DNA of 64,000 nt from Bacteriovorax sp. BAL6_X (GTDB lineage Bacteria; Bdellovibrionota; Bacteriovoracia; Bacteriovoracales; Bacteriovoracaceae), in NCBI RefSeq assembly GCF_000443995.1, contig NZ_AUMC01000010.1:620001-684000 (forward strand). Reading direction: 5' to 3'. Of the stretch, positions 27,287-56,335 are shown in pieces (position 1 is the first letter of the stretch; the number at the start of each line of letters is the position of its first letter). The notes under the pieces were generated by a model. It did not search any database. It had not been told where the DNA came from and was given only the letters and a program-made list of their open reading frames with translations. The position numbers were made by a program, and so were the translations under genes.

Positions 27287-28150
27287 TTAAAGGATGTCAT
27301 CGATTGACCTTTCGTGGCTCTTTATGGCCTCGTAAAGGTCGTACATCTTGCTATTTGTCCCGTAATCGACCTCTTTAAAGTCATGAATATCTTTAATAAT
27401 GTGAGTAATCTTGGAAATGCGATCAAGATTCTTTTCACAGCGATTTAACGTTTCGTTATCAAAACCTCTCTTTAATCTACTTAAGCATAATTTTGAAACA
27501 GTAAGAGGGTTATTAATCTCATGAGATAAGGTGATAATCATCTTTGAAATGGCATCTCTTTTTTGAAATCGTTTAAGTTCTTTTGATTTTTCGCGATCAA
27601 CTATATGCTTGTAATAGACTACTAATGAAAAAAGACAAATTGGTATTCCTTGATTAATAATCACTTGGAGCTCTTTATCTAATATTCCCGAAAAGCTATC
27701 TCCTGTATAAGAGTTATAAATGATGGCAACGGAGTTAAGAAGTATTCCCACAAAGGCAACTCGAAAAGAAACGGTGTAAGAAATTAGAGAAAAGACCACA
27801 AGCATCCATGGTACTAGTACAATTGCATGAGATTGTAGCTCAAAGGCCCTTAAGTTTAGTATAACGTAGCTCATGCTTAAGATTAATATTCTAAAGAGAA
27901 GAGTATTGTCGTACTTTTTGTAAAAGAAGAGGGAATATGCCGCAATAGGAATAAAAAGGAGAAAGGGAGCATTGTACTTACTAAATACTCCGACGTTATA
28001 AGAGAACACTCCAACCATTATAATAAAAATTAAAACGATAGAAATAAGAGTGAACGCGATTAAGCGAGCCTCGTAACGTTTATCAATAGCTACAAGTTCA
28101 TTTTCATCATTTACAGAATTTGGATAAAAGTATTTGAATAAATCGACGAT
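27287..28150 (-). CDS. Membrane histidine kinase lacking ATPase domain, non-canonical start
   Basis: From the first ATG (28018) the protein would begin inside its first membrane helix. The frame stays open upstream for 44 more codons to an ATC at 28150, which sits six bases after a strong AGAGGTGG. The added part reads KRYEARLIAFTLISIVLIF, a natural first helix. About six membrane segments follow, then a HisKA helix with phospho-acceptor His in ITLSHEINNPLTVSK. The frame stops soon after the dimerisation helices, so the HATPase_c domain is missing. Total about 287 residues. It may be a degenerate kinase or a partner trans-phosphorylated by another kinase. Confidence 0.65.
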   Translation of the reverse strand: MVDLFKYFYPNSVNDENELVAIDKRYEARLIAFTLISIVLIFIIMVGVFSYNVGVFSKYNAPFLLFIPIAAYSLFFYKKYDNTLLFRILILSMSYVILNLRAFELQSHAIVLVPWMLVVFSLISYTVSFRVAFVGILLNSVAIIYNSYTGDSFSGILDKELQVIINQGIPICLFSLVVYYKHIVDREKSKELKRFQKRDAISKMIITLSHEINNPLTVSKLCLSRLKRGFDNETLNRCEKNLDRISKITHIIKDIHDFKEVDYGTNSKMYDLYEAIKSHERSIDDIL

Positions 28151-28209
28151 TATGATCCACCTCTGTTTTACTCAGTCGCTCTCAATTAATATTAGGTTTT
28201 ATCTTTTAC

Positions 28210-52134: not shown

Positions 52135-52575
52135 CTAGAGAAATGACTTGATGATATCTTTTCGAGTGACGATACCAACTAGCTTATTATCTTTGATCAC
52201 AGGCACACGTTTGATATGTTTTTCAATCATAAATTGGATATAACCTTCAAGATCAGTCTCTTCTGTGAGTGACTTCACATTTCTTGACATGACCTCTCCA
52301 ACTCTTACTTCTTTAATTCGCTCATATGTTTTTTCAAGTTGAGTAAAATTTAAATTGTGTCCAAATGCTTGTTTTAGTTTTGCCATTGCGTGAGGGATTT
52401 CAACTTCTTTACCAACAAAGTCTGACTCTGTAATAATTCCCACGACATCACCATCTCTATTTAGAACTGGTAAAGCACTAACTCGATTATCACACATAAG
52501 CTTTGCAGCATCTCTAATTGTCTTTTCTTCTGTAATCGTAATAGGTTTCTTAGTCATTATCTTTGTGATTTCCAT
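52135..52575 (-). CDS. Stand-alone CBS-domain pair protein, paralog of the 47543 gene
   Basis: 146 residues: CBS1 IMTKKPITITEEKTIRDAAK to VGIITESDFVGKE, CBS2 VMSRNVKSLTEETDLEGYI to VGIVTRKDIIKSF. It keeps the same EIPHAMAKLKQAFGHN segment between domains as the 47543-47992 protein. Upstream of nhaC on the same strand, so it may regulate the antiporter. Ribosome binding site GAGG. Confidence 0.9.
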   Translation of the reverse strand: MEITKIMTKKPITITEEKTIRDAAKLMCDNRVSALPVLNRDGDVVGIITESDFVGKEVEIPHAMAKLKQAFGHNLNFTQLEKTYERIKEVRVGEVMSRNVKSLTEETDLEGYIQFMIEKHIKRVPVIKDNKLVGIVTRKDIIKSFL

Positions 52576-52730
52576 ATTTTCCTCGTTGTTGTAACAGAAG
52601 GTATAACGGAGGAATACATGGTTTGTGTGAGTAATTAATTTGTTAACTTAAATCAAAGAAATTTAACTTTAAAATTACTGATCGATCTGCCGATAAGAAT
52701 ACATTGGTTTTTATACGTTATTTTGTGTTG

Positions 52731-52747
52731 GTCCCGGTACGGGTCCA
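52731..52747 (+). other. Short GC-rich inverted repeat before the BCCT gene
   Basis: GGTCCCG-GTA-CGGGTCC has CCCG/CGGG as a perfect core and outer GG/CC pairs around one T-T mismatch. It lies six bases before the ribosome binding site of the BCCT gene. It may form a small leader hairpin or be an operator. Confidence 0.35.
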
Positions 52748-52765
52748 ATTAAAGGGGAGTTTGTT

Positions 52766-54745
52766 ATCAATAAGGAATCGAAATCGACGGAAGTCGTCGA
52801 ATCAACAATTAACAAGAATGTTTTCTTTACCTCAGCTTTCTTCATTCTCTTAATCACTGCTGTTGGCTCTTTTTGGCCAGGACACTTAAGTCAATTTTTT
52901 AAGGGGATACAAGCATGGTTAATTGCTAAGGCCAGTTGGGTCTATGTTTTAGCAATGGGAATCATTTTATTCACATCACTTTGGCTAATGGTAAGCCGTC
53001 TAGGTGATATTAAACTCGGCCCAGACCACTCAGAACCTAGTTATACAAACTTGTCTTGGTTTGCAATGCTCTTTTCGGCAGGGATGGGGATTGGTCTACT
53101 GTTCTTTGGGGTTGCTGAGCCAATCATGCACTTTAATTCTCCACCAGTGGGGGATCCTCAGAGTATTGAAAGTGCTCGGGAGGCAATGAAGATTACTTTC
53201 TTTCATTGGGGACTACATGCTTGGGGAGCGTATGCCCTTTTGGCCGTTTGCCTCGCTTACTTTTGTTATCGCAAAGGTTTGCCACTGCTTCCTAGATCGG
53301 CATTCTATCCTATTTTAGGAGATAAAGTTCATGGCCCACTCGGTGATATTGTCGATACATTTGCGGTTATAGGAACAATGTTTGGTGTTGCAACATCTCT
53401 TGGTTTTGGTGTTGCTCAAGTTAATGCCGGGCTCCACTACTTAATAGGTATTCCACAATCAGAGACAATTCAAGTTGGACTAATTGCTATTATTACGGCA
53501 ATGGCAACTGTTTCTGTTGTTCTAGGTCTTGATGGTGGAATTAAGAAATTATCAAATATTAACCTTGCTGTTGCTGTTTTACTTCTCGTTGCAGTCATGG
53601 TCTTAGGTGATACGGTCCATCTTTTTCAGCAGTATGTACAAAACACTGGGTCTTATCTTTCTGACATAATCTACAAAACTTTCAATCTTTATGCTTATGA
53701 GAAGAAAGAAGAGTGGATTGGTGGTTGGACACTTCTATACTGGGGTTGGTGGATTTCATGGTCACCATTTGTTGGAATGTTTATTGCTCGTATTTCAAGA
53801 GGACGTACCATTCGTGAGTTTATGATTGGAGTCCTATTTGTTCCCGCAGGTTTTACATTCCTTTGGATGACTGTTTTTGGAAACTCTGCGATCTCAATTG
53901 CACTTAAAGATACAACGGGAGAATTTGTTGCAGCTGTTACTGGTAACGTTCCGGTTGCTCTATTTCGATTTTTTGAATTCTTTCCGTTCTCGAGTGTGCT
54001 TTCAATTTTAGGTGTTATCCTAGTTGTTACTTTCTTTGTTAGTTCATCTGATTCAGGATCACTTGTAATTGATACTCTTGCCTCTGGTGGGAAGCAGGAG
54101 CCACCTGTTTGGCAAAGAGTTTTCTGGGCAGTAACAGAAGGTGTTGTCGCAGCTGTACTTCTACACTCAGGGGGTCTTGAGGCCCTGCAAACAATGACGA
54201 TTGCTTCAGCATTTCCGATGATCTTCTTGTTGTTAATCGCAGTTTATTGTTTAATAAAGTCCTTACGTAGCGATTATCTCTTACGTAATCAGGTTCTAAA
54301 TCATACAAGCTCTGTTCAATATGAGAAGGCGAGTATGACTTGGAAGGAGCACTTAAGCGCTCTCTTAAGTCACCCTAAGCACAAAGTTGCAGAAGAGTTC
54401 TTAGCTGATGTTGTTGAGCCTGGCCTTAAAGAATTACAGCAAGAGTTTATCAAAAATGGACTAGAAGCTGTTATTCGCTATGGTAAAGATGATGCAATCT
54501 CTCTTGTTATTGAAAAGGAAGGAGTTGAGGACTTTAAGTACGAAGTATACCTAAGGTCTTTCGAAGTTCCTGATTTCTTACCTGGTAATCAAGAGAAGTA
54601 TTATCGTGCAGAAGTTTTCCTACTTAGTGGAGGGCAAGAGTACGATATCTATGGTTATTCGAAAGAACAAATTGTTGCTGATGCTGTAACTCAATACGAA
54701 AAGCACTATCAGTATCTGCATTTAACGAACTCGGAGCTTGTTTAG
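52766..54745 (+). CDS. BCCT-family compatible-solute transporter, non-canonical start
   Basis: A start at the first ATG (52955) would cut off the first membrane helix. The frame stays open for 63 codons upstream to an ATC at 52766, six bases after AGGGGAG; in between there is no ATG, GTG or TTG. The added part contains NKNVFFTSAFFILLITAVGSF, the expected first helix. About 659 residues. Family motifs are FSAGMGIGLLFFGVAEPI, FHWGLHAWGAYALLA and GWTLLYWGWWISWSPFVGMFIARISRGRTIREF. The cargo is probably glycine betaine, choline or carnitine. A long soluble C-terminal tail (about 470-596 of the short form) may sense osmotic state. Confidence 0.85.
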   Translation: MNKESKSTEVVESTINKNVFFTSAFFILLITAVGSFWPGHLSQFFKGIQAWLIAKASWVYVLAMGIILFTSLWLMVSRLGDIKLGPDHSEPSYTNLSWFAMLFSAGMGIGLLFFGVAEPIMHFNSPPVGDPQSIESAREAMKITFFHWGLHAWGAYALLAVCLAYFCYRKGLPLLPRSAFYPILGDKVHGPLGDIVDTFAVIGTMFGVATSLGFGVAQVNAGLHYLIGIPQSETIQVGLIAIITAMATVSVVLGLDGGIKKLSNINLAVAVLLLVAVMVLGDTVHLFQQYVQNTGSYLSDIIYKTFNLYAYEKKEEWIGGWTLLYWGWWISWSPFVGMFIARISRGRTIREFMIGVLFVPAGFTFLWMTVFGNSAISIALKDTTGEFVAAVTGNVPVALFRFFEFFPFSSVLSILGVILVVTFFVSSSDSGSLVIDTLASGGKQEPPVWQRVFWAVTEGVVAAVLLHSGGLEALQTMTIASAFPMIFLLLIAVYCLIKSLRSDYLLRNQVLNHTSSVQYEKASMTWKEHLSALLSHPKHKVAEEFLADVVEPGLKELQQEFIKNGLEAVIRYGKDDAISLVIEKEGVEDFKYEVYLRSFEVPDFLPGNQEKYYRAEVFLLSGGQEYDIYGYSKEQIVADAVTQYEKHYQYLHLTNSELV

Positions 54746-54874
54746 CACTGACAAGAATACTTGGCATATAATTTTAGTTATTTACTAATATTGGCGCCTT
54801 TTCCTACTCAATTATTGATTTATTTAAAGATATATTAAAATTAACCGATAAGAAGAGTAGGGGAAGGTGTTTAT

Positions 54875-56335
54875 TTGAGTTCAGAATTTCGCTCACTTTT
54901 AAGAAATATATTTGGTGCTGGAGCATTAGCTGCAGTTGTTTCTTATTTTAGCTTCCTCGCTCCTGAGTCCTCAACTTCTCCTGAAGATAAAATGCTTTCA
55001 GACTCTCTTGACTCTCAAGAGAGATTCGAAGGGCAAGAAGTAGATGAATATGGACGATCAAAGCGTCGACCTTCTTCTTTTGAGGAGGAGATCAGTCGAC
55101 AATTTCCTACGAGAAAAAGAAAGAATGAAGCATCACGTGTGAATGTCGGTGGCAAGGTTGTGAGAGATCCTGCCTATGAAGCTCAGCAATTAGAAGGCTC
55201 AAGCTATGAAGAAAATTTAGGTGGTGGCAGTGGCCGTGGAAGTATTTCTGCAGGAGGCTCATATGCTGGCCCTTCAAATAGCGGTGGAGATACAGGCCAT
55301 TCTGGTGGCGATAGCTCTGGGACAAATAACTTTTCTTCTGATAGTGGTGGAACAAGTTCTACTAACTCAGTTGCTTCAATATCAAATGATGATCTTGGTG
55401 TTAAGAGTGGCTCATCAATTTCAACAACTGATGATTCGGATGACACTGATACATCTTCGTCATCATCAAATGGAAGTGGAAGCTCAAGTGATCCTGTGAT
55501 TACTCCTGTGACATGTTCTGTGGATCGTGCTGAGGGAATGTATTCAGCAACAATCAATGTAACAATCACTTGTAGTGAGAATTCAAAAATATCATATTGT
55601 TTACAAGCTGGTGGGGGATTTTGTGACCCTGTCTCAACACCTACAATATACTCTGGTCCAATTGCAGTCGGTACTGTGGATGGAGAGTTTGGCCTGTCAT
55701 ATTTTGCTGAATCATTGAGTACAACGAGCTCAACAGAGGTGGCCGAATTGACCTATCATATTGACTCAACTCCGCCAGACTTAATGGTAACATTTCCAAA
55801 AGTCTACGCACAAACAACATTTAATTCTGTATCGAATTACACTCAGTCCGCTGATTTTGGTAAATCAAACTATTATTATCATCAGATTAACTTTAAAGGG
55901 ACAAATCCAGGTGCAGGAGGTCTTAATTGGACATGTGATCAAATTTATCATGATTATAATGTTTCTGGTTTTACATCAATTGCATCGGATGTTGATGTCT
56001 CTGGCCTTGATCCGGCCACTCAACAGATTGATCAATTAATAGGAATTACTGACTTCGTAACAGGAGATAACTATATTGCAACAGTTATCGAGGATCGAAA
56101 TCTCGGGATCATTTCATGTCAGGTACAAAATGTTGTGGTAAGAGATTTTGCCATTGCGGCCTTTACGGGGACGGGAAAGACTTCCGTTATTTCTGGAGTT
56201 CGTACTACTTATGGAGGCTTTGTTGGCTATGGTCATTTCCAAGCAACTCCAAATACTTCTAATTCAGGTCAGCTAAGTAATGAGCAAGGGATTACTTCAA
56301 ATAAACAAGGGCTCTATACTATAACTCATCAATAG
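54875..56335 (+). CDS. Exported Ser/Gly-rich protein with chitobiase-C-like domain
   Basis: 486 residues from TTG, with GGGAAGGTG upstream. An N-terminal hydrophobic helix (FGAGALAAVVSYFSFLAP) is followed by a charged stretch. A low-complexity region of about 80 residues, rich in Ser, Gly, Thr and Asp, follows. Next comes a beta domain resembling the CHB_HEX_C/chitobiase C-terminal type (CSENSKISYCLQAGG to EVAELTYHIDSTPP). The last 160 residues are unassigned. First gene of a surface-protein group. Confidence 0.65.
   Translation: MSSEFRSLLRNIFGAGALAAVVSYFSFLAPESSTSPEDKMLSDSLDSQERFEGQEVDEYGRSKRRPSSFEEEISRQFPTRKRKNEASRVNVGGKVVRDPAYEAQQLEGSSYEENLGGGSGRGSISAGGSYAGPSNSGGDTGHSGGDSSGTNNFSSDSGGTSSTNSVASISNDDLGVKSGSSISTTDDSDDTDTSSSSSNGSGSSSDPVITPVTCSVDRAEGMYSATINVTITCSENSKISYCLQAGGGFCDPVSTPTIYSGPIAVGTVDGEFGLSYFAESLSTTSSTEVAELTYHIDSTPPDLMVTFPKVYAQTTFNSVSNYTQSADFGKSNYYYHQINFKGTNPGAGGLNWTCDQIYHDYNVSGFTSIASDVDVSGLDPATQQIDQLIGITDFVTGDNYIATVIEDRNLGIISCQVQNVVVRDFAIAAFTGTGKTSVISGVRTTYGGFVGYGHFQATPNTSNSGQLSNEQGITSNKQGLYTITHQ

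Follow-up and report, generated by a model that had tools for sequence, protein, structure and literature searches.

Where does translation begin in a gene whose reading frame offers no ATG, GTG or TTG ahead of its first membrane helix? The question is raised by a transporter gene of the BCCT family in Bacteriovorax sp. BAL6_X, located on contig NZ_AUMC01000010.1 within a stretch of 64,000 nucleotides, which was analysed as a whole and is called the window here. An earlier note on this DNA had stated that no standard start precedes the ATG at 52955, and had proposed that translation begins at an ATC at 52766, well spaced behind a Shine-Dalgarno (SD) motif. The first statement has held up and the second is strongly supported, as the ATC with its SD recurs in 11 to 13 of 20 orthologues. 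The features involved are the following.

52766 to 54745, + strand: ORF of a BetT-like choline/betaine transporter (BCCT), 659 codons from the AUC start, identified by Pfam, TIGR00842 and a 6-orthologue alignment
52766 to 52768, + strand: ATC initiation codon, its third base C in 11 clear ATC-type orthologues (13 with the ambiguous ones)
52754 to 52759, + strand: Shine-Dalgarno motif GGGGAG, 6 nt before the ATC
52765, + strand: T at position -1 of the ATC, found in 13/13 ATC-type and 1/7 ATG orthologues
52694 to 52696, + strand: upstream in-frame stop TAA, from the frame scan
52955 to 52957, + strand: ATG, the earliest standard start in frame, 63 codons into the ORF read from the ATC, past the first membrane helix and lacking an SD

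The sequence of 52750-52768 is TAAAGGGGAGTTTGTTATC, in which the ATC stands in the frame of the BCCT ORF, six bases past the last G of GGGGAG. The frame is open from the TAA at 52694 onwards (ORF 52697-54745, +), and a codon scan found no in-frame ATG, GTG or TTG between that stop and the ATG at 52955. A TTG at 52761, between the SD and the ATC, is out of frame. The same applies to the TTG near 52703 that the earlier note had considered as a far start: it occupies 52704-52706, and the BCCT frame reads ATT at 52703. The protein read from the ATC is a full-length BCCT transporter, scoring 645.7 bits against PF02028 (gathering score 27) and 526.4 bits against TIGR00842 (cut-off 407.55). It also matches the BetT choline transporter subfamily model NF007399 over nearly its full length with 632.9 bits, below the curated cut-off of 695, and is for this reason named BetT-like only. 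If translation began at the ATG at 52955, the protein would lack its first membrane helix. A gene caller restricted to ATG, GTG and TTG would lose the first 63 residues, helix included. The gene thus combines the sequence traits of a conserved non-canonical start: no standard start, a suitable SD spacing and an odd codon kept in orthologues. Around it, no Rfam match was found in 52500-53000 at E up to 1, the predicted fold of 52720-52800 is ordinary (z -1.14), and a promoter scan of 52500-54900 gave no site on the + strand.

Conservation was followed in 129 genomes of the predatory family Bacteriovoracaceae, 29 of which contain a BCCT match at E up to 1e-100. The counted set comprises 20 full-length orthologues with 59-100% identity; nine BCCT genes of the family that form a shorter group (45-51% identity) were left out, and the three of these nine that were read (L008, L009, L010) have an in-frame ATG. 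An SD motif followed by ATC at a distance of 5-9 bases is present in 11/20 orthologues (L001, L002, L003, L004, L006, L054, L055, L057, L059, L060 and L063), while seven carry ATG (L005, L056, L058, L007, L062, L064 and L065). The remaining two, L061 and L066, are ambiguous, as their SD-placed ATC is preceded, at a distance of 12 and 6 codons, respectively, by an in-frame ATG that lacks a well placed SD. The ATC-type orthologues are spread over genera g1, g10, g54, g55 and g56, and their motifs are GGAG, GGAGG or AAGGAG, with GGGGAG in the window gene; in L003 an in-frame ATG overlaps the SD, and in L006 a TTG does likewise. Their ORFs are open over about 650 codons, those of L063 and L066 being shorter and running off short contigs. 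Bacteriovorax sp. UBA1852 (L073) and DB6_IX (L074) have start regions like those of L004 and L006, respectively, and DB6_IX carries the ATC form. The ATC aligns with the ATG of the remaining orthologues, and since 7/20 use ATG, AUC is not indispensable. Outside the family, a standard start codon is present in frame in 51 of the 52 relatives that were read. As a separate observation, the BCCT gene of Siccirubricoccus deserti (L095, at about 2876) reads TAG-GAGGACGCC-ATT-CCC, followed by about 25 codons without a standard start, which makes it an independent candidate for an ATT start outside Bacteriovoracaceae.

The identity of the codon itself is also constrained. When the DNA of five orthologues is aligned, TATC is the same in all of them and most nearby bases vary. 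At 13 internal columns that are isoleucine in all 13 ATC-type orthologues, the codons are ATT 104 times (62%), ATC 40 times and ATA 23 times, and none of the 13 columns is ATC throughout; the start codon is ATC in 13/13 rows against 40/167 codons at these columns, the 13 start rows having been chosen for an ATC behind an SD. Neither ATT nor ATA occurs at the start in any row of the orthologue group. The chance of eleven ATCs in a row, (40/167)^11, is about 1.5e-7, and the contrast in T at -1 between ATC-type and ATG orthologues gives a Fisher value of 1.8e-4, both taking rows as independent and hence overstated, because the orthologues share ancestry. For comparison, a T at -1 precedes 39.5% of 415 long ATG ORFs in the same genome. 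Weak GUG and UUG starts tend to have stronger SD motifs in compensation (PMC5622118). In the BCCT group the SD match is 4-7 bases long in ATC rows and 4-5 in ATG rows, with a genome mean of 4.05 and a value of 4 in the window gene, so that the match in ATC rows is only slightly longer than in ATG rows or in the genome mean. On an unrooted protein tree the ATC/ATG label changes three times; start columns were included in this first tree, and a repeat without them, with the two ambiguous rows unlabelled, again gave three changes, from which it follows that ATC has persisted along long branches. The pattern agrees with an ancient AUC start that has a few times given way to AUG or replaced it, the tree being unrooted as to direction.

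Conservation therefore strongly supports the ATC at 52766 as a genuine AUC start that has been conserved. This assignment is based on the sequence and its conservation, on the bias in the third base, on the association with U at -1 and on the fact that no alternative start is conserved. How such a codon would be used is what we infer: that fMet initiates, that the yield is low, that it depends on IF3, and what purpose this would serve. With a probability of roughly 0.87, the AUC is placed by the SD, read by fMet-tRNA and mostly rejected by IF3, so that synthesis is slow and increases as IF3 becomes limiting. The SD motif would position the 30S subunit at the AUC, where the initiator tRNA (anticodon CAU) would read A and U, the third base being a C-C mismatch. 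A U at -1 could pair with A37 of the initiator tRNA, and the one found here would perhaps help in this way. IF3 would then reject most AUC complexes, so that little BCCT protein would be made until IF3 runs short. Low translation under IF3 control is probable by analogy with infC, pcnB and Streptomyces sigR. That AUC has been kept across several genera suggests that BCCT production is held low or tied to the state of the translation machinery; the purpose might be a ceiling on osmolyte import, or a coupling of import to that state.

Other explanations place the start, or the cause of the ATC, elsewhere. It is improbable that a standard codon is used instead, be it the ATG at 52955 or a TTG or GTG of another frame combined with programmed frameshifting, with the ATC as an ordinary isoleucine codon or untranslated. 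Such a reading could draw on the out-of-frame TTG at 52761 close behind GGGGAG, and on a TTG two codons past the ATC in L004, but the fixed C of the third base speaks against it, and the ATG at 52955, in addition to costing the helix, has no SD of its own. A frameshifted leader or an upstream ORF was considered by scanning the other frames at the 11 clear ATC loci, which yielded no consistent start; as 5/11 have no overlapping standard start in either of the other frames, a frameshifted leader is no general explanation. The constancy of the C, never T or A, would also be expected if the lineage decoded AUC starts by an initiator tRNA of their own, with the anticodon GAU. This is less probable still: among 31 tRNA matches, 30 loci of which were read, the one initiator-type tRNA has CAU (L220) and none has GAU, in a set that is incomplete and in which tRNA-Ile(GAU) itself was not found. 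Least credible of all, with a chance close to nil, is that the ATC reflects a mistake in sequencing or assembly, or the loss of an ATG from a gene in decay. Single-base errors can occur in draft genomes, and nothing specific was found that points to one here; the identical ATC in 11 to 13 separate genomes, ahead of open ORFs of about 650 codons, speaks against both.

A closer competitor accepts the AUC start and is a variant of the explanation preferred here. It holds that the AUC merely sets a constant low yield of a protein that becomes costly when abundant, as a throttle of the pcnB kind and without IF3-responsive regulation, and we regard it as quite possible, at somewhat less than even odds. 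The conservation of a weak start together with its SD is in line with it, and E. coli pcnB is reportedly limited at translation, an observation attributed to Binns and Masters. On the other hand, a weak SD or an AUU or AUA start could give a constant low rate as well, and none of the 13 rows has AUU or AUA. A bolder extension of the IF3-controlled AUC start, to which we give only a slim chance, is that UAUC, the -1 U together with AUC, would be an initiation signal of its own kind, distinct from weak starts in general. The constant third base and the U before the codon would then be kept for a response that AUU and AUA lack, for instance to the ionic state of the cytoplasm or to IF3 occupancy, and the ribosome itself would gate the uptake of choline/betaine as osmotic conditions change or in the course of the predatory cycle.

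The earlier note had further supposed that this lineage uses ATC starts, perhaps to limit the expression of membrane proteins, and had suggested a genome-wide search. Such a survey, covering 1.48 Mb (46% of the genome) and 1311 gene calls, found 7/73 ATC codons to stand behind a suitably spaced SD and ahead of the first standard start, against 95/3667 for all codons together; in 1.084 Mb the SD-to-ATC rate was 16/136. The rate for ATC is above that of most codons, yet few genes are concerned: of the seven ATCs, the two in L038 seem to be inside an ORF and another two belong to a kinase gene, and the credible starts are those of BCCT, EgtB (L039:17081), a TolA/TonB-like protein (L187:10293) and the kinase (ATC 28150, -). 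With about 4 cases in 1311 gene calls, the supposition holds for a handful of genes, and ATC is a rare start in this genome, not a general one. The limiting of membrane proteins is possible for BCCT and is not a general rule, because EgtB is a soluble enzyme family.

The kinase is most likely what the earlier note had counted as a first case before the BCCT gene. This histidine-kinase-like ORF (27287-28171, -) ends soon after HisKA, and its SD-placed ATC is followed by 44 codons without ATG, GTG or TTG; no close orthologue of it was found among the 58 genomes searched. The egtB gene (G000:C10:617081, 2.9 kb before the window; NCBIfam EgtB, 481 bits) reads TTGGAG-CCATT-ATC, with 67 codons lacking a standard start. 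Its ATC is shared by none of the 29 other loci read, out of 33 other matching genomes, and the orthologues read start with ATG or other standard codons. In the TolA/TonB-like gene (G000:C3:450293) the ATC is the only plausible start before the membrane helix; it lies one base after the stop of an upstream frame, so that re-initiation is possible there, and none of the 29 other loci read, out of 116 other matching genomes, shares it. Two further candidates, L344:13349 (ATC, G007) and L310:7386 (ATT), have no Pfam match. A possible CTG start was seen in passing in the gene for a zinc/iron-chelating CxxCxxCC protein (L182:19350), which reads CGGAGGT-CGAG-CTG and has 63 codons without a standard start. 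In infC, the start is ATT after GGAGGTGATTT in this genome and ATT in the five same-genus genomes read; by alignment it seems to be ATC in four more distant loci (among L017, L020, L021, L024 and L028) and ATA in one, which indicates that the phylum does initiate at such codons.

Among the papers covered by a literature search on AUC/ATC starts, non-canonical starts of BCCT genes and start codons in Bacteriovorax, no earlier report of a BCCT gene with an AUC start was seen. The gene is a new instance of a kind of start that was already known. Conserved starts other than ATG, GTG and TTG have been described for few bacterial genes, which in the literature cited here are infC and regulators. A transporter gene that has retained AUC in several genera, its third base and the U at -1 being invariant, is a natural test case for initiation fidelity in gene control.

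Among the known systems, infC is the textbook gene regulated by IF3. The weak, AUU-type start of E. coli pcnB resembles the BCCT start in that it is said to limit expression, and differs from it in codon and gene. Autoregulated infC genes, with AUU, AUC or AUA, share with BCCT a conserved non-canonical start behind an SD, and it is AUC in some relatives and in Streptomyces infC (PMC5472188); unlike the BCCT gene, a transporter without known feedback on initiation, infC encodes the discriminating factor itself. PMC5472188 also describes for Streptomyces sigR a conserved GTC start (GUU in 2/34 species), whose product becomes scarcer when more IF3 is supplied and more abundant in mutants with impaired IF3 fidelity. 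By that account sigR is like BCCT in its non-canonical start with a conserved SD, retained within one lineage and missed by annotation; it differs in being a regulator gene that starts with GUC and in having an experimental IF3 effect, where that on the BCCT AUC would follow by inference. In Staphylococcus aureus, cvfC1 (AUU) and ccpN (AUA) have conserved non-canonical starts with lower reporter yield (PMC13009471). They resemble the BCCT gene in having such starts with an SD outside infC, whereas they belong to a Firmicute, have an extended SD, were mapped by Ribo-Ret, and are neither AUC starts nor transporter genes (PMC13009471).
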